Shown here piece by piece: positions 4,092-9,802 of a DNA stretch of 20,436 nucleotides; the stretch's first letter is position 1; every line of letters starts with the position of its first letter. The notes under the pieces are model-generated. The model saw only the letters and a list, made by a program, of their open reading frames with translations. It did not search any database and was not told the origin of the DNA. Source of the DNA: a virus. A program made the position numbers and the translations under genes. Where the stretch lies: positions 1-20,436 of IMG/VR virus record IMGVR_UViG_3300025889_020557. The stretch is one strand, 5' to 3'.

Positions 4092-4906
4092 CGGTTAATC
4101 ACTTCCATCCAAGCATCATAAATCTTATCCTTGGGCCAATACTCAGACCCAGGATCGGCACTTGGAAGGCCATTATACTTAACCCCAGTCATTTCACACT
4201 CATGCTTTATATAATTGAATGTTTCTCCTAAGGATGAGTGAAATACCTCTTGGAGCATGTCATACATTGCCTGCTTATTATCTTGGAATCCTAAATACCT
4301 AACATCACGTCCAAGAAGAGGTTGAACTTGTGATCTGAAATAGGTATAATCTGTTAGATCACCAAAAATTTCTATTTGAGAGTAACCAGCTTTTTTCGCT
4401 CTTTGAATTGAAACATGAGTTTGCTTATGTGGATCAATACTTCCAATTACGCCCGCAATATTTGTATGTTCACACGTTTTCTTTTTAAGTTCATGGATAA
4501 CATTAGGGATTACATCCCCCGGGACTCCTTGCCAATCTGCTTGGGACTGGGACACGAATACCATCTCATCCCAGAAATCAAATATATTGCTACCGGCTTT
4601 ATTTAACTCATCCTGTACTTTTCCTAACAGTGGGAATACTGCTGTCTCATGGCAAGCAAGGATGTGTTTTTTCATAGGAACCCCTGTTTTACGACTAGGG
4701 AGACAATAGTGGGAGATTACTACATTGTCAGGTGTTGGTCTCCAATTTTGAATATTATCCCCAAAATCCGTCATCTTCATATGCCAGGGGTTTGGCCCCC
4801 ATAAAGTTGCATTGTGGCCTTTTTCACGAAAAAGCTCTACCAAATTAATTAGGGCTACAGTCGAGCCACCAGGATTAGAATAACCAGTTACTATATCAAT
4901 TTCCAT
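4088..4906 (-). CDS. Glycosyltransferase, GT4-like
   Basis: A 272-residue protein beginning with MEIDIVTGYSNPGGSTVAL, a GT-B first strand followed by a glycine/serine loop and helix. VSQSQADW and GDVIPNVI (about 120-140) are the linker region seen in GT4 enzymes. IAGVIGSIDPHKQTHVSIQRA (about 149-170) is the start of the C-terminal donor domain, where GT4 proteins usually read G.....K. The last part, SSLGETFNYIKHECEMTGV, holds an E-x7-E-like pattern in a slightly unusual form. It overlaps the preceding gene by 11 bp and the next by 4 bp. It is shorter than typical GT4 enzymes (350-400), so it may be a compact or divergent member. Function beyond sugar transfer is unknown. Confidence 0.75.
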   Translation of the reverse strand: MEIDIVTGYSNPGGSTVALINLVELFREKGHNATLWGPNPWHMKMTDFGDNIQNWRPTPDNVVISHYCLPSRKTGVPMKKHILACHETAVFPLLGKVQDELNKAGSNIFDFWDEMVFVSQSQADWQGVPGDVIPNVIHELKKKTCEHTNIAGVIGSIDPHKQTHVSIQRAKKAGYSQIEIFGDLTDYTYFRSQVQPLLGRDVRYLGFQDNKQAMYDMLQEVFHSSLGETFNYIKHECEMTGVKYNGLPSADPGSEYWPKDKIYDAWMEVINR

Positions 4907-6128
4907 AAGATCTTAATTCCTCGTCAAACGCTCTATTCTCAATAGGATTCACATTTAAAGTTTTGAACGACTCCGAATACATCAGCAGACGATCCTTCAC
5001 CACCTTATTGATATCATAGAATCGCTCCGTTATTTCATGCAGGCTTTCCCCCATTTCTTTTATCTTTTTCTTGTTACGGATGAGACTTACTAAAACCTTA
5101 ACCCAATCACTCTGTTTAGCATCAGCCGGTAATAAGTAACCGTTCTGACCATTGATAATTGTATCTCTATAGCAACCTACGTCAGATGCTACGAGCGGAA
5201 CTTTATATCTTCCACACTCAGCTAGTTTAATATCACTTTTACATTCATTAAAGAGATTAGACTTTAGAGGAGCTATTGAAATATCCATATTAGCATAAAC
5301 TCGTCCATACATATGAGGAGGTAGAGCATTATGAATTCTATAGTTTTTTACACCTTTCATACCTCTCATCATGTTAGCAACATAATCGTTCCAAGTCTCC
5401 TTCTGCCATGCATAGTTTGGGTCGTCCGATGGTGGTGGATGGCCGTACAAGTCCCATATTACGTTCTCCACGCCCACCTTCTGGTTCACGAGATGCGGAA
5501 CACCTTGGAAAACACGAACGTCAGGGAAGTGGTGAATCCCCCCTGCCCATCCTATTCTCACCCTGTCTGATTCTATCCTCGGAGCATTCCAGGCTGGTAG
5601 CTCATAGTCTATAGCATTCCGAATCACGCCAAGCATCGCACTACAATGTGGCTTAATCTGTTTTGCAAACTCTTGTTGAGTGCAGGTTACAAGATGAACA
5701 TTATTATACACGAAAGCTGTAATCTTGTCAAGTTGTTTTTCTTTATAAACATCAAAAAGACGATGTTCCTCGTAGAGATTAGTTAAAAGATCATCTGTGT
5801 CAAAATGAACAAACTTTCCTAGCTCATGGGCTTTCCCTATAGATCTAGCTAAATAATTACCTCCATAGTTAGTAATATTATTTGCTAAAAATACATCACA
5901 AGCTTTCATGTCAGCGAAAGAGAATTCTGTGTCCCAGATTATGCTGCCCGGCATACTATTAGGGTCAGCACCAGGGTTTTCCTCCATCCACTTCCGGCGG
6001 CGTTCTTCTATAACTTCAGGTTCTGTCACCATTCCAAGCGGGTTCTTATTAAACACTATTTGAACTTGGTCAGGGAATTTCTCAGCCAATTTTTGCATAG
6101 GCATCAGGCTGCGGTAATAGGCACACAC
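4896..6128 (-). CDS. GT4-type glycosyltransferase, main part; N-terminus encoded separately at 6164-6268
   Basis: A 410-residue frame opening at GTG 6128. The C-terminal donor domain is clear: VRIGWAGGIHHFPDV (190-204), YRIHNALPPHMYGRVYANMDISIAPL (263-288), then FNECKSDIKLAECGRYKVPLVAS with the GT4 E-x7-E helix. The protein starts abruptly at CAYYRSLMPMQKL, which in such enzymes follows a strand plus glycine-rich loop. That missing piece (ILVFPPNEGG) is encoded 38 nt upstream in another frame. In this frame the codons before GTG are GGA TGG GGA GAA ATC, back to a TAG at 6144-6146. GGGGAG lies five bases before GTG and could drive reinitiation, giving an N-truncated enzyme. Alternatively the ribosome bypasses the 38 nt and makes one protein of about 445 residues. 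First gene of the glycosyltransferase operon. Confidence 0.85.
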   Translation of the reverse strand: MCAYYRSLMPMQKLAEKFPDQVQIVFNKNPLGMVTEPEVIEERRRKWMEENPGADPNSMPGSIIWDTEFSFADMKACDVFLANNITNYGGNYLARSIGKAHELGKFVHFDTDDLLTNLYEEHRLFDVYKEKQLDKITAFVYNNVHLVTCTQQEFAKQIKPHCSAMLGVIRNAIDYELPAWNAPRIESDRVRIGWAGGIHHFPDVRVFQGVPHLVNQKVGVENVIWDLYGHPPPSDDPNYAWQKETWNDYVANMMRGMKGVKNYRIHNALPPHMYGRVYANMDISIAPLKSNLFNECKSDIKLAECGRYKVPLVASDVGCYRDTIINGQNGYLLPADAKQSDWVKVLVSLIRNKKKIKEMGESLHEITERFYDINKVVKDRLLMYSESFKTLNVNPIENRAFDEELRSYGN

Positions 6129-6163
6129 GATTTCTCCCCATCCCTAAGGATGGGGAATATTCA
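6126..6163 (-). other. 38-nt insertion interrupting the glycosyltransferase; candidate translational bypass (byp) element
   Basis: Seen directly: between the GGG codon (6164-6166) and the TGT codon (6123-6125) lie 38 nt that break the reading frame. They begin with TGA and contain CCCCATCC-TTAG-GGATGGGG (6155-6136), an 8-bp stem with a 4-nt loop that can add a T-A and a T-G pair. They end with GGGGAGAAATCGTG. Removing them restores NEGG/CAYYR. T4 gene 60 has the same plan: a glycine take-off codon, an immediate stop, a hairpin, an SD-like stretch and a glycine landing codon in a coding gap of about 50 nt. Possible landing codons in the correct frame are GGA at 6135-6137 or 6141-6143. Active bypass is inference; an inactivating insertion is the alternative. 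Confidence 0.55.
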
Positions 6164-6268
6164 CCCACCCTCATTAGGTGGAAATACCAAGATCCGCAAA
6201 CGTTTGTCGTTTGGATCTAAGTTAAATCCAGTCCGGTCAGAGGGTGGGCCTTTCTTAGTTTCTGTCAT
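6161..6268 (-). CDS. N-terminal fragment of the split glycosyltransferase (35 codons, then TGA)
   Basis: ATG at 6268 opens a 35-codon frame whose last part reads KRLRILVFPPNEGG and is stopped by TGA at 6161-6163 directly after GGG. KRLRILVFPPNEGG is a standard GT-B first beta-strand plus glycine loop and fits exactly in front of CAYYRSLMPMQKL in the downstream frame. The join GGG-TGT-GCC is perfect if the 38 nt at 6126-6163 are left out. An in-frame TGA lies just upstream of the ATG, so this is the only ATG start available. No strong Shine-Dalgarno is seen. The start overlaps the last 14 nt of the HNH gene, so coupling is possible. It is either the 5' exon-like part of a bypassed gene or a remnant of a broken gene. 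Confidence 0.75.
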   Translation of the reverse strand: MTETKKGPPSDRTGFNLDPNDKRLRILVFPPNEGG

Positions 6269-6905
6269 TGAAGCGATTTTTCATCTTATCAATTAAGTTA
6301 GGATTATATTCTTCTAAAAGTTTAAATCCTTTTTCTAGATTACATGCAGGACATGTAATGGCTAAGTTCTCTAGATCATTATTACCACCACGAGATAATG
6401 GTATTAAATGTTCTAGCCAATAGTTACTACCAACAGGCTTATCACAAAATTCACAGTGAAATTCTGTTGTGTTGTAGACTATGTTATTATAGCTCTCTAG
6501 AAAAGTAATTGATGAAAAATCTAAAGGAGGGATGTTTTTTTCCCTCACCCTTCTTATATTTTTATCCCTCTTCTTCTTTGCCCGCCAATATTGCGGCTGC
6601 CTTTCTTTATTCTTAATCCTCGCCTGTCGTCTCTTCTCTTTACCGTGCTCAGATTTTTGCCAAGAACTTATTCTTTCCTTGGCACGTTCTTTATTATTTT
6701 CATACCACTCTTTTGCTCTTTGGCGAGCAGCTTCTTGTCGCTCCTCTTCATTTTTATATTTTAAAATTTTAGGAGATGGTGTATACTTGGAACGTTGTTT
6801 TTTATTGTAACAAGATTTGCAGTGGGCTTTGGTTCTTCCTGAACCAGCTTTAGGGAATAATTCAATAGGAAGATCTTCTTTACAAGTTCGGCATGATTTG
6901 GTCAT
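6255..6905 (-). CDS. HNH homing-type endonuclease with N-terminal zinc finger
   Basis: A 216-residue protein. An N-terminal CxxC...CxxC finger (C5, C8, C29, C32) has the form common in phage HNH proteins. A long Lys/Arg/Glu-rich helical stretch (50-125) follows, probably DNA-binding. Then comes a canonical HNH domain at about 149-193: CEFC, LEHLIPLSRGGNNDLEN (H166, N180) and CPAC. The HNH family nicks or cuts DNA with a single metal, and free-standing phage members often act in homing. Start ATG 6905 abuts an 18-bp palindrome; GGAAG lies upstream of it. The gene's 3' end overlaps by 14 nt the start of the split glycosyltransferase, about 100 bp from the 38-nt insertion. This resembles T4 mobA beside gene 60. 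No RuvC or PLMP part is seen, so it is not IscB. Confidence 0.9.
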   Translation of the reverse strand: MTKSCRTCKEDLPIELFPKAGSGRTKAHCKSCYNKKQRSKYTPSPKILKYKNEEERQEAARQRAKEWYENNKERAKERISSWQKSEHGKEKRRQARIKNKERQPQYWRAKKKRDKNIRRVREKNIPPLDFSSITFLESYNNIVYNTTEFHCEFCDKPVGSNYWLEHLIPLSRGGNNDLENLAITCPACNLEKGFKLLEEYNPNLIDKMKNRFNDRN

Positions 6906-6923
6906 AGTAGTATATATACTACT
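6906..6923 (-). promoter_or_regulatory. 18-bp perfect palindrome abutting the HNH start codon
   Basis: AGTAGTATATATACTACT reads the same on both strands and ends at the base before the HNH ATG (6905). As RNA it can fold into a 7-bp stem with a TATA loop next to or over the SD-like GGAAG, which would reduce translation. The TATATATA core is 6-7 of 8 like the T4 late promoter TATAAATA. In T4, I-TevI-type genes have their ribosome site in a hairpin with a late promoter in the same place; the same logic is inferred here, not shown. Confidence 0.5.
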
Positions 6924-6938
6924 TCCACGCCTATAATA

Positions 6939-7448
6939 CTACTTTTCTGATTTATCCCTCAGTCTATCAATATCATCTTGAAGTCTCTCTGTCTTCTCTT
7001 CAAGTGGTTTAATTAGCAATCTCATTTCACGTTGAAGAATACTATCTAACCTATCAGTTCTGTCCCTATTGTTCTGATCTAAAACTTCCATATCACGGTG
7101 GAGGTCCTTCTCTAACCTCTCAGACTCAGCATCAGTAAATACAGTTTTTTCTAAATCTCTAACTGTACTCTCAATCCTAATAATTTCTTGGTTGTGCCGG
7201 CTTAAATCATTTAAAGGGCCATATGAACCTAAAGTAACAAGACCACCTATTATACCTATGACAACAGCAGCAGCAGCAATTATTGGTGCCCACTGAGTTT
7301 TATTTGATCCTCTCATTTCCTGGGCAAAGAGTTGGAAGTCTCCTCTTAACCCTGAGATGTCATTCCTGAGTCCTTTATACCCTTCTTCTAGAGCTGCGAT
7401 ACGGTCACTTTGATTCAATTTTGGCTGCGTCATTTTATTACTATTCAT
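6939..7448 (-). CDS. Single-pass membrane coiled-coil protein of unknown function
   Basis: A 169-residue protein with three parts. A short heptad-like N-terminal helix (IAALEEGYKGLRNDISGLRGDF, about 17-39) comes first. One hydrophobic membrane segment with Ala/Ile/Gly character lies at about 53-76 (APIIAAAAVVIGIIGG). A long charged C-terminal coiled coil (about 85-168) is rich in Leu, Glu, Arg and Asp. No enzyme motif is visible. It follows the terminator at 7482-7526, so it probably heads a new transcript that runs into the HNH and glycosyltransferase genes. ATG at 7448 is used as start; a second ATG five codons later is possible, and neither has a strong Shine-Dalgarno. It could be a lysis-related or envelope protein, but nothing proves this. 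Confidence 0.75.
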   Translation of the reverse strand: MNSNKMTQPKLNQSDRIAALEEGYKGLRNDISGLRGDFQLFAQEMRGSNKTQWAPIIAAAAVVIGIIGGLVTLGSYGPLNDLSRHNQEIIRIESTVRDLEKTVFTDAESERLEKDLHRDMEVLDQNNRDRTDRLDSILQREMRLLIKPLEEKTERLQDDIDRLRDKSEK

Positions 7449-7481
7449 TAATATTTAGTTTTCACCGTATTAAAGAATAAT

Positions 7482-7526
7482 AAAAAAAAACTCTCTTCGA
7501 CTCACAGTAGATAGTCGAAGAAAGTT
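7482..7526 (-). terminator. Rho-independent terminator
   Basis: On the minus strand a 14-bp stem (AACTTTCTTCGACT paired with AGTCGAAGAGAGTT, one G-U wobble) closes a 10-nt loop at 7503-7512. It is followed at once by nine T (7482-7490). It lies 24 bp after the stop of the HNH gene at 7550 and should end the transcript that includes the tRNA cluster and both tandem HNH genes. Confidence 0.9.
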
Positions 7527-7549
7527 CGGACTTAGAATTCTTATATAAG

Positions 7550-8230
7550 TTAGGAATGGTTAAGCAGGTATCTTTTACATGCTCGGGCATAAACCTTTTT
7601 TATTGCTTCTACGTCTTTTTCTGACATTATCTCTCTTACCAAAGGATCTTTAAACTCTACATTTATTGATTTTACTACATCCTCTATTTTTGATCCTAAC
7701 CCGTCTAACCATTCTTGTTTTTCTTTTTCATTAAGAATCTTACGTTCATAGGGAAGCTGGCCAGAATTTTTACTACAATTACAATAATAGCATAAAAATT
7801 GTACATTACCCTTTGTATACCCACCTTCATTATTAAATCTGTCCAATGTAGCCGAATCGAGGTCATGTTTACCCCTTCCGCCTCCAGTTTTCAACTTTTT
7901 CCCACATTCTGGATTTTCACATTTCCCACCGATAGCTTTAAAACGTTTCAATCCCCATTCAACAGTTAAATCATCATCAAAGGGTCGATTATATTTTTTA
8001 GCTCGGGCCTGCGCGGACCCTAAAAGTATTCCCATCCAATTTTTTTTCTTGCTTTTAGCATTGATTTTTTTAAAACAAATTTTACAGTAGCAGCCAAAAC
8101 CGTCTTTTAATGTTTTCCTTTTATAAAAATATTTTGATAATTCTTTAAGTTCATCTACGGTAAAAACTTTTTTACATTTTGAACAAGTTTTTTCTTTTTT
8201 TCCGTTGTCTAGTTTTTTGTAGTGTGTCAT
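7550..8230 (-). CDS. HNH-type endonuclease, second tandem copy
   Basis: A 226-residue protein. The N-terminal zinc finger has CSKC (16-19) and CKIC (49-52). A basic stretch follows, then a zinc/HNH-like nuclease core: KCENPEC (103-109), HDLDSATLDRFNNEGGYTKGNVQFLC (122-147) and YCNCSK. The segment S-A-T-L-D-R-F-N-N-x5-T-x-x-N-V-Q matches the SLDRIDN..KGY..GNV pattern of phage HNH homing endonucleases. It starts at the base after the stop of the preceding gene (TAAATG) and is a clear paralogue of it, sharing the opening HYKKLDNGK and most of the core. The terminator follows it. A role in homing or host/competitor DNA cleavage is inferred from the family. Confidence 0.85.
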   Translation of the reverse strand: MTHYKKLDNGKKEKTCSKCKKVFTVDELKELSKYFYKRKTLKDGFGCYCKICFKKINAKSKKKNWMGILLGSAQARAKKYNRPFDDDLTVEWGLKRFKAIGGKCENPECGKKLKTGGGRGKHDLDSATLDRFNNEGGYTKGNVQFLCYYCNCSKNSGQLPYERKILNEKEKQEWLDGLGSKIEDVVKSINVEFKDPLVREIMSEKDVEAIKKVYARACKRYLLNHS

Positions 8231-8887
8231 TTAAACGCCTATAAATTTTTCTACTGCCCTTACTATGATTTTATCTATGTCATCTTTATCTTTTTTAAGT
8301 AAGACTTTTTCTCTAAAAAAATCTTCAAATAGTATTAATTTATCAATTTTAGGTTTTAATTCTTCCAACCATTTTTGTTTTTTTCTTTGATATAAAACTT
8401 CACGCTCATAAGGAAACTGACCAGATCTTTTACTTGTATTACAGAATGAACATAAGAACTGTACGTTATCTTTTGTATATCCACCTTCATTATCAAACCT
8501 ATCCAATGTAGCTGAATCGTGGGTCTTTTTACGTTTTCCCGTTCCGCCGGTTTTCAACTTTTTCCTACACTCGGGATTTTCACATTTCCCGTCGATAGTT
8601 GTAAATCGTTCTAATATCCATTCCACGGTTAAATCAAAGTCCCGACCATATTTTTTAGCTCGGCATAGAGCACTGTATAAAAGGATTTTTTCCCAGTTCT
8701 TTTTATGATATTTAAGACAAGCTTTTTTATTACAAATTTTACACTGACTTATAAAACCATCTTTTTTTATTTTATCTTTATAAAAAAATTCTAATAATTC
8801 CTCAGATTTGTCTACAGTAAAAACTTTTTTACATTTTGGACAAGTTTTTTCTATTTTTCCGTTGTCTAATTTTTTATAATGTGGCAT
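8231..8887 (-). CDS. HNH-type endonuclease, first tandem copy
   Basis: A 218-residue protein starting at ATG 8887 (PHYKKLDNGKIEKTCPKC). The frame stays open further upstream to 9109, but that extension reads AVAQLGEHLLCKQK and similar. This is the well-known false peptide from translating tRNA genes, so the internal ATG is the true start. Domains match the paralogue: CPKC (16-19) and CKIC (49-52) finger, KCENPEC, then HDSATLDRFDNEGGYTKDNVQFLC (123-146) and CSFCN. The two copies differ mainly in loop lengths and the C-terminal helices, so the duplication is not recent. It lies just downstream of three tRNA genes, a common place for phage homing genes. Confidence 0.86.
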   Translation of the reverse strand: MPHYKKLDNGKIEKTCPKCKKVFTVDKSEELLEFFYKDKIKKDGFISQCKICNKKACLKYHKKNWEKILLYSALCRAKKYGRDFDLTVEWILERFTTIDGKCENPECRKKLKTGGTGKRKKTHDSATLDRFDNEGGYTKDNVQFLCSFCNTSKRSGQFPYEREVLYQRKKQKWLEELKPKIDKLILFEDFFREKVLLKKDKDDIDKIIVRAVEKFIGV

Positions 8888-8914
8888 AATAGTTAAATAA
8901 TTAAGAAATAAAAT

Positions 8915-8968
8915 TGGGGATGAGGCTCTAAACTCCAATAAGCTATGGAATGGCAAGTTAAATCCCCA
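8915..8968 (-). other. Structured spacer, possible degenerate tRNA
   Basis: On the minus strand this 54-nt stretch starts TGGGGAT and ends ATCCCCA, a perfect 7-bp closing stem. An inner hairpin ATTCCA/TGGAGT (one wobble) has an 8-nt loop. It follows tRNA-Ala after the same spacer that separates the CAU tRNA from tRNA-Ala (CCACCAATTTTTATGGGG). This suggests a fourth tRNA once stood here and lost its arms. It lacks a normal T-loop and anticodon arm, so it is not called as a tRNA. Confidence 0.4.
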
Positions 8969-8981
8969 TAAAAATTGGTGG
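8964..8981 (-). repeat. 18-bp direct repeat, copy 1
   Basis: The plus strand reads ccccataaaaattggtgg here and again at 9049-9066, 85 bp away. Each copy spans a tRNA 3' CCA end, an AT spacer and the GGGG start of the next element, as expected from tandem tRNA duplication. Confidence 0.85.
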
Positions 8982-9052
8982 AAACCGCTCGGACTTGAAC
9001 CGAGACACTTTTGCTTGCAAAGCAAATGCTCTCCCAATTGAGCTACGGCCCC
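8976..9052 (-). tRNA. tRNA-Ala (anticodon TGC), with a one-base bulge in the acceptor stem
   Basis: A cloverleaf can be drawn by hand. Acceptor GGGGCCG; D arm GCTC/GAGC; anticodon stem TTTGC/GCAAA with loop TTTGCAA (anticodon TGC); T arm CTCGG-TTCAAGT-CCGAG; encoded ACCA end. The 3' acceptor strand CGGTTTCC has eight bases instead of seven. Pairing works with one unpaired T, which leaves a G3-U70 pair, the alanine identity element. The extra base may weaken or abolish function. Confidence 0.85.
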
Positions 9053-9066
9053 ATAAAAATTGGTGG
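9049..9066 (-). repeat. 18-bp direct repeat, copy 2
   Basis: Second exact copy of ccccataaaaattggtgg (plus strand), spanning the 3' end of the CAU tRNA and the 5' end of tRNA-Ala. Confidence 0.85.
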
Positions 9067-9139
9067 CGGGAGCAGGATTCGAACCTGCGACCTCTTGGTT
9101 ATGAGCCAAGCGTCCTAAACCGGACTAGACCACCCCGCA
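9061..9139 (-). tRNA. tRNA with CAT anticodon (Met or lysidine-type Ile)
   Basis: 79 nt. D arm GTCT/GGAC with 11-nt loop; anticodon stem CTTGG/CCAAG with loop CTCATAA (anticodon CAT); T arm GCAGG-TTCGAAT-CCTGC; acceptor GCGGGG paired to TCCCGC; encoded ACCA. Base 1 (T) faces base 72 (C) unpaired, an initiator-like trait, but the anticodon stem lacks the three G-C pairs of initiators. Elongator Met versus Ile2 cannot be settled by eye. Confidence 0.9.
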
Positions 9140-9140
9140 A

Positions 9141-9215
9141 TGGCTGACGAGGCAGGAATTGAACCTACACCCATCCGTTTAACAAACGGATGCTCTCCCT
9201 TTAAGCTACTCGTCA
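9141..9215 (-). tRNA. tRNA-Asn (anticodon GTT)
   Basis: 75 nt with a complete cloverleaf. Acceptor TGACGAG/CTCGTCA, D arm GCTT/GAGC, anticodon stem TCCGT/ACGGA with loop TTGTTAA (GTT), T arm GTAGG-TTCAATT-CCTGC, discriminator G and encoded CCA. It is first in the tRNA cluster and separated from the next tRNA by one base, so processing from one transcript is expected. Confidence 0.93.
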
Positions 9216-9228
9216 TTATGTAAGTAAC

Positions 9229-9253
9229 AGTAGTTTTTTATATAGAAACTACT
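9229..9253 (-). promoter_or_regulatory. AT-rich inverted repeat upstream of the tRNA cluster, possible promoter
   Basis: On the minus strand AGTAGTTT and AAACTACT form an 8-bp inverted repeat around CTATATAAA. The T-A-T-A-A-A-A-A stretch is 7 of 8 like the T4 late promoter TATAAATA and lies 14-25 bp before tRNA-Asn. The AGTAGT...ACTACT arms are the same as those of the palindrome at 6906-6923. No T-run follows, so it is not a terminator. Confidence 0.35.
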
Positions 9254-9268
9254 AAAACTATATTAACC

Positions 9269-9802
9269 TTAAGCCGCCTTCTTAGTCTCGAAAACGTCTT
9301 TAGTTTCCTTACTACTGTGGCCAAATCCTAGCGCCTTACCAACACTCATAACAGCATCAGCTAGATCAACTTTACCATCTGTTGGCAGTGCTGCCCGAAT
9401 TGCACTAAGATAATGGTCACGTTTGCGTCGGAAGAATAATGCCCCAAGACCTTCTAATGCTACCAGAGGAGGCCAAAAAGAGCCGCCAACTTTACCGGCA
9501 AAGGCCAGGACATCGCCCCAAAAGTCTGAACTTCCTGGGTCTAAGGTTAGTTTAAATGCATCTGGTTTTACCTGATCCACATCAGCCAGAACTATCTTTT
9601 CACCAGGAAAGTTTTCTTCCATATATTTCCTAGTACCTTCAGAAAGATCCTCTAGAGGAATGTGCTTGACATTATCTTTTTGGTCCTCTAAGATAAACTT
9701 ATCTGTAGTAATAACTTTATCGTGGACTGCATTTTTTAGCAGTTCACAACTCGACATCATTACCACTATAAAACCCAAAAATACTAGGAGAAACTTTTTC
9801 AT
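9269..9802 (-). CDS. Predicted lipoprotein of unknown function
   Basis: A 177-residue protein. The N-terminus is a lipoprotein signal: KK, a hydrophobic core (FLLVFLGFIVVMM), then lipobox MSSC with C19 as the likely lipidated residue. The mature part has a hydrophilic region to about 85 and a Gly/Trp/Leu-rich segment, FWPPLVALEGLGALFF (about 109-124). This is followed by RRKRDHY, which could be membrane-associated. The C-terminal 40 residues are mildly amphipathic. No enzyme motif is seen. The start codon overlaps the SSB stop as ATGA. Phage lipoproteins serve in lysis (outer spanins), superinfection exclusion or envelope change, but spanins are usually shorter and Pro-rich, so no specific role is assigned. 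Confidence 0.8.
   Translation of the reverse strand: MKKFLLVFLGFIVVMMSSCELLKNAVHDKVITTDKFILEDQKDNVKHIPLEDLSEGTRKYMEENFPGEKIVLADVDQVKPDAFKLTLDPGSSDFWGDVLAFAGKVGGSFWPPLVALEGLGALFFRRKRDHYLSAIRAALPTDGKVDLADAVMSVGKALGFGHSSKETKDVFETKKAA

Follow-up and report, generated by a model that had tools for sequence, protein, structure and literature searches.

To our knowledge, gene 60 of bacteriophage T4 was for decades nearly the only efficient translational bypass of the bacterial type, and a connection with a homing endonuclease was known from this case alone. The insert of gene 60 is 50 nt long, with GGA-UAG at the take-off site; mobA, the upstream HNH gene, has an annotated copy of only 37 codons. 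Several reports (PMC5009743, PMC2988022, PMC3014915) describe an HNH endonuclease gene located upstream of gene 60, against which the 50-nt insert is thought to protect.

Three other systems are related to the locus described here. Hops over a stop codon placed between matched codons have been obtained in laboratory constructs, whereas a 2016 review (PMC5009743) stated that natural examples of an in-frame stop hop were not known. In the mitochondria of Magnusiomyces capitatus, short inserts (byps) are bypassed during translation of many genes, apparently independently of mRNA context and in some cases with imperfect landing codons. In phage Aeh1 the nrdA gene is interrupted by insertion of the HNH endonuclease gene mobE, yet the enzyme stays functional, two polypeptides assembling. 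We describe here a glycosyltransferase (GT) gene and an adjoining HNH gene of a virus which, on sequence evidence, together look like a natural, spreading relative of the T4 ribosome jump.

An interrupted glycosyltransferase gene

The window, i.e. the whole 20,436-nt stretch of viral DNA that was analysed, carries on its minus strand a GT gene that is divided between two reading frames. The first frame (6161-6268) starts with the ATG at 6268, comprises 35 codons and encodes the peptide MTETKKGPPSDRTGFNLDPNDKRLRILVFPPNEGG, which corresponds to a leader and strand beta1 with its glycine loop; its last residues, ILVFPPNEGG, are followed by the stop codon TGA (6161-6163). The continuation CAYYRSLMPM starts in a different frame with TGT (6123-6125), extends over 409 codons to the stop, reaching position 4896 (second frame, 4896-6125), and represents the remainder of a GT-B glycosyltransferase (Pfam Glyco_trans_1_4 and Glycos_transf_1). 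Between the putative take-off codon GGG (6164-6166) and TGT there are exactly 38 nt (6126-6163), of which the in-phase TGA is the first codon. The preliminary description of the locus had proposed a programmed bypass on the basis of this layout, and its coordinates for the end of the first frame and the resumption 38 nt later agree with ours.

Searches with the GT and SSB proteins of the window as sole queries gave no relatives at first. A pattern obtained by back-translation of the conserved motif led to the first syntenic relative (L002), and profile searches of IMG/VR yielded many more. In all 102 distinct uninterrupted GT genes GG is directly followed by C[AS]YYR (one exception in form, CAFYR), and none of them has any insertion at this site. 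The insert thus lies inside a motif that ranks among the best conserved of the protein. Assignment to the GT-B (GT4-like) enzymes was borne out by the Pfam group 1 profiles and by the predicted structure of the uninterrupted homologue L221 (pLDDT 88.5), which matches the GT-B enzymes GlgM, BshA and HepE. According to the model, the insertion point follows strand beta1 and its glycine loop and precedes helix alpha1 of the GT-B fold.

The interruption is associated with one family of HNH genes

Directly upstream of the GT gene there is an HNH endonuclease gene (6255-6905, minus strand; Pfam HNH_5, E = 6.8e-10 and HNH, E = 6.6e-9), whose end overlaps the GT start. This gene, the 9-bp stem and the four homologous cassettes presented below had been missed in the first reading of the sequence. 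Two of the genes found by the GT search (L198 and L223) had a homologue of the window HNH gene upstream and a stop codon inside the motif. A search with these three HNH proteins then led to L230 and L232, where the HNH homologues adjoin the same GT gene and the GT gene is again interrupted. The association was thus found from both directions. The Pfam HNH nuclease domain was matched in all five cassettes. Interruption at the same motif was observed in 5/5 GT genes located beside this HNH family and in 0/102 others (nominal exact p = 9e-9, with the genes taken as independent though the phages are related). No close cassette relative of the window was found among the other four, the HNH protein of the window being 51% identical to that of L232. 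The possibility that any neighbouring HNH gene causes the interruption was rejected, as the GT genes of L177, L203 and L209 are uninterrupted although HNH genes of other types adjoin them.

As in T4, the HNH gene lies upstream, the insert is near the start of the downstream gene and, in the window, the stop codon comes right after a glycine take-off codon. The two loci differ in that T4 has 60.1 between the endonuclease gene and gene 60, whereas in the window the HNH reading frame overlaps the interrupted gene.

The gaps of the five cassettes measure 6, 8, 9, 9 and 38 nt, as compared with 50 nt in T4. With the gap in parentheses, the junctions read GGC(TAG-TTA-GGC)GGA-TGT in L198, GGC(TGA-CTA-GGC)GGG-TGT in L230, GGT(TAA-GGT)TGC in L223 and GCT(TGA-AT-GCA)TAC in L232. 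The downstream part is in frame in L198, L230 and L223, whereas the frame changes in L232 and in the window, where GGG is followed by TGA and the rest of the 38 nt before TGT. In 5/5 cassettes an in-phase stop codon directly follows the take-off codon, and all three stop codons are represented. L198 and L230 share descent, thus there are at most four independent inserts; the chance that a stop would be the first in-phase codon in four inserts is approximately 5e-6 if codons are taken as uniform. The four interrupted genes that were long enough to be placed in the GT tree occupy four separate positions. The second frame could be read in four cassettes and has its full length in each of them.

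In L198, L230, L223 and L232 the last codon of the gap encodes the same amino acid as the take-off codon, and a hop would produce NEGGCSYYR, NEGGCAYYR, NTGGCSYYR and NYGGCAYYR, respectively, which is in each case the exact native sequence. Short direct repeats at the gaps may stem from the way the inserts originated, therefore the matched codons alone do not prove hopping. The arrangement in L223, GGU-UAA-GGU, has the form of the synthetic stop hops (a stop between matched codons, nine bases giving one amino acid), but it is natural.

The leader is complementary to the take-off site

In the window, the sequence CCCACCCTC in the GT leader (6240-6248, minus strand) can form a perfect 9-bp stem with GAGGGTGGG (6164-6172, minus strand), whose end is the take-off codon GGG. 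The calculated duplex energy is -22.7 kcal/mol, the pairing probabilities are 0.92-1.00, and an equally stable stem was found in 2 of 1000 shuffled sequences. Complementarity between leader and take-off site was found in 5/5 cassettes (perfect pairs: 9 in the window, 11 in L198, 8 in L230, 9 in L223 and 14 in L232), the 3' arm ending at most 2 nt from the end of the take-off codon in every case. Duplex energies ranged from -20.4 to -29.6 kcal/mol, as opposed to a mean of -10.4 and a lowest value of -19.9 kcal/mol in the 102 uninterrupted genes, and the pairing probabilities of the stem cores were near 1. Leader folding in the cassettes was stronger than in dinucleotide shuffles (z from -3.9 to -7.8) and stronger than in synonymous recodings (z from -2.7 to -5.0). 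The sequences of the arms vary between cassettes while pairing is kept; for example, a U-A pair in one of L198 and L230 corresponds to C-G in the other. Pairs could not be counted in a three-way MAFFT alignment of the leaders because of its many gaps, and pairing was therefore compared cassette by cassette.

The element common to the cassettes is thus a hairpin before the take-off codon. In this respect they differ from gene 60, where the take-off hairpin lies within the gap and the first frame folds no more stably than expected (z = +0.3), which indicates that the GT cassettes are not a copy of the T4 design. The preliminary description had listed a hairpin in the gap among the T4-like parts of the locus; this part of the parallel applies to the window only (see below).

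The HNH gene and the insert are replaced as one block

Occupied and empty alleles were found in close relatives in two instances, L223/L221 and L198/L196, while no such pair is known for the cassette of the window. L221 is an uninterrupted twin of L223: the two are 98% identical on both flanks and differ by one replaced block, which in L223 comprises the HNH gene, the rewritten start of the GT gene and the insert. Identity returns within a few bases of the insert. The same block replacement distinguishes L198 (occupied) from L196 (empty), with flanks 96.6% and 93.8% identical. Judged from these alignments, the allele pairs show the HNH gene and the insert to move as one block, as homing predicts. 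Because the insert travels with a homing endonuclease gene, the parallel with T4 is closer than was known at the first reading. T4 and the GT loci also have in common that there are relatives lacking both the insert and the endonuclease gene, and that self-protection has been proposed for the insert.

The related cassettes L198 and L230 (approximately 76% identical) allowed selection across the gap to be assessed. The 30 codons after the gap contain 15 synonymous changes and one amino acid change, a serine/alanine replacement at a position where both residues are usual. The same pattern holds for the 10 codons that separate the gap from the next possible start codon. At the gap itself the stop codon is TAG in L198 and TGA in L230, i.e. 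the codon changed but is still a stop. The 15:1 excess of synonymous changes and the maintenance of a stop argue, for these two cassettes, against a dead gene and against reinitiation at the next ATG.

The gap and the putative landing site in the window

The gap of the window contains a hairpin (6134-6157, minus strand) of 10 bp, including one U-G pair, with the loop UUAG. It starts 6 nt after the take-off codon, and no other GC-rich hairpin in the window is as strong, so the stable gap hairpin of the preliminary description is indeed present. Its 20-nt core had 0 matches in dinucleotide shuffles of the window. The hairpin was not present in the four other cassettes, its core had no match in other IMG/VR contigs, it belongs to no Rfam family, and there is no second copy within the window. 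Derivation from an IS200/IS605-type or other repeat was rejected on the grounds that the core is absent from IMG/VR and that looser bacterial matches share no flanks, and a terminator on the grounds that there is no U run. Hairpins much like this one (TCCCCATCC-loop-GGATGGGGA) occur in the bacterial genome loci L088, L099, L116, L136 and L147; our impression is that the looser bacterial matches are mostly terminator-like stems, with a few resembling insertion sequence ends.

Also found as described earlier were the SD-like GGGGAG (6134-6139), the codon GGA (6135-6137) and the codon GTG (6126-6128), all on the minus strand. The GAG is 5 nt before GTG in the window, and in T4 a GAG is located 6 nt before the landing codon. 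The resumed frame of the window is closed by a TAG at +17, therefore a hop would have to land beyond this TAG. A hop from GGG (6164-6166) to GGA, the candidate cognate codon that had been suggested for landing, would add the residues EIV within a motif that is free of insertions in 102 relatives. Landing on GUG (6126-6128) would yield the seamless protein, but this near-cognate candidate mismatches the take-off GGG and pairs poorly with a glycine anticodon. The imperfect match is a difference from T4, as is the lack of a KKYK nascent peptide signal in the window leader. Judging by the title of a 2004 report by Herr et al., minimal pairing can reportedly suffice. Imperfect landing codons are also a feature of some byps of M. 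capitatus; the GT cassettes differ from byps in being located in phages, at one site and tied to an HNH gene. A phage-encoded glycine or suppressor tRNA was considered and rejected, the tRNAs of the window being Ala, Met and Asn, and so was an altered genetic code, all three stops occurring at the gaps.

Proposed explanation and alternatives

We consider it probable that the locus is a mobile HNH homing cassette with an insert that protects it from its own endonuclease and that ribosomes hop over. The cassette would consist of an HNH homing endonuclease gene and the rewritten 5' end of the neighbouring GT gene. In cassette-free relatives, the probable target of the endonuclease is the DNA encoding the invariant GG-C-[AS]-YYR motif; in the cassette itself this site would be broken by the short insert and thus protected from cleavage. 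During translation the ribosome would pause with the stop codon in the A site directly after the take-off codon, and the peptidyl-tRNA would let go. By analogy with the 5' stem-loop of T4, the stem formed by leader and take-off site may close behind the ribosome, masking the take-off codon and pushing the ribosome onwards. Re-pairing of the tRNA with a matching codon just past the gap would then allow the normal protein to be completed. DNA cleavage, self-protection and the hop itself are steps that we infer from the sequences. The core of the earlier proposal, a bypass of the gene 60 kind, is strongly favoured by the finding that all five HNH-linked copies have the in-phase stop after the take-off codon.

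For the window alone, reinitiation at GTG 6126-6128 is the main rival. Translation would terminate at the stop and start afresh downstream, and the 35-residue beta1 peptide and a 410-residue body would assemble, as do the two polypeptides of split NrdA in Aeh1. The GTG just before TGT has the well-spaced GGGGAG, which would become accessible once the hairpin is opened by a ribosome that terminates at TGA, and split genes that remain functional are known next to homing endonucleases. A gene in pieces nevertheless appears unlikely. At least three of the five GT cassettes, in contrast to Aeh1, have no start codon for an intact second piece: in L198, L230 and L223 there is none from the stop to CSYYR/CAYYR, and the first in-frame ATG is 7-10 codons further on. 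The codons preceding this ATG are under protein-level selection in L198/L230, and the start codon candidates of L232 are weak and lack a spaced SD sequence.

Alternatively, insertion of the endonuclease gene may have broken the GT gene, the inserts being scars. A stop is present in every interrupted gene, and some tips are recent, as the 98% identical flanks of L223/L221 show. In addition, of 74 columns that are otherwise invariant, 5 differ in the window GT, more than in any other row examined, thus some relaxation in the window is possible. On the other hand, the rate of evolution of the window GT is in step with that of the neighbouring genes, the second frame is of full length wherever it is readable, and strong purifying selection extends across the gap in L198/L230. 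In-phase stops, matched codons and a stem would not be expected at all sites in scars, and we regard a dead gene as quite improbable.

Stop codon readthrough or ordinary frameshifting instead of a hop is very improbable. For L198, L230 and L223, where the frame is the same on both sides of the gap, decoding the stop as an amino acid would yield a complete protein enlarged by 2-3 residues, but these would fall in the invariant motif, and each of the three stop codons occurs among the cassettes. Readthrough is excluded for the window and L232 by their change of frame, and frameshifting at the take-off codon fails in the window, where TAG closes the resumed frame up to +17. An assembly or sequencing error, conceivable for a single metagenomic contig with a hairpin core found in no other IMG/VR contig, is scarcely credible given that the same layout of HNH gene plus interruption, with different inserts, recurs in four further contigs that derive from four additional metagenome sets.

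Returning to the homing cassette with a hopped insert, the comparisons tend to favour, somewhat less firmly than for the locus itself, a second, independent class of natural bypass, made up of self-protecting HNH cassettes in which stem-driven stop hops between matched codons span 6-9 nt and, in one case, about 38 nt. If this is true, the class includes a natural GGU-UAA-GGU stop hop, T4 gene 60 becomes one instance of a recurring strategy, and the reason for the gaps would be to alter the DNA target while leaving the protein unchanged. Given a cassette family with varied gap lengths, stops, take-off codons and stems, for which the corresponding empty sites are available, natural variation would reveal the rules of hopping, and such rules would be testable in short reporters.

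Other features of the upstream region

In L198 a second putative endonuclease-like reading frame (444-944, CxxC...CNYK type) lies just upstream of the SSB gene; the near-identical L196 has no alignable sequence at this place (blastn gap, 413-937). Compared with L003 and L155, the window contains approximately 3 kb of extra DNA (6269-9268) between a lipoprotein-like gene (9269-9802) and the GT gene. It holds three tRNA genes (Asn, Met and Ala), a membrane-type reading frame (6939-7448), the HNH gene and two paralogous HNH-like reading frames without Pfam hits (7550-8230 and 8231 to approximately 8890). Sequences like these two are found just upstream of the uninterrupted GT genes of L177, L203 and L209, which suggests that the intergenic spot attracts several endonuclease families. 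The second of these frames, taken from TTG 9109 (8231-9109), crosses tRNA-Ala and part of tRNA-Met (8980-9052 and 9061-9139), and its true start is probably downstream, near 8890.
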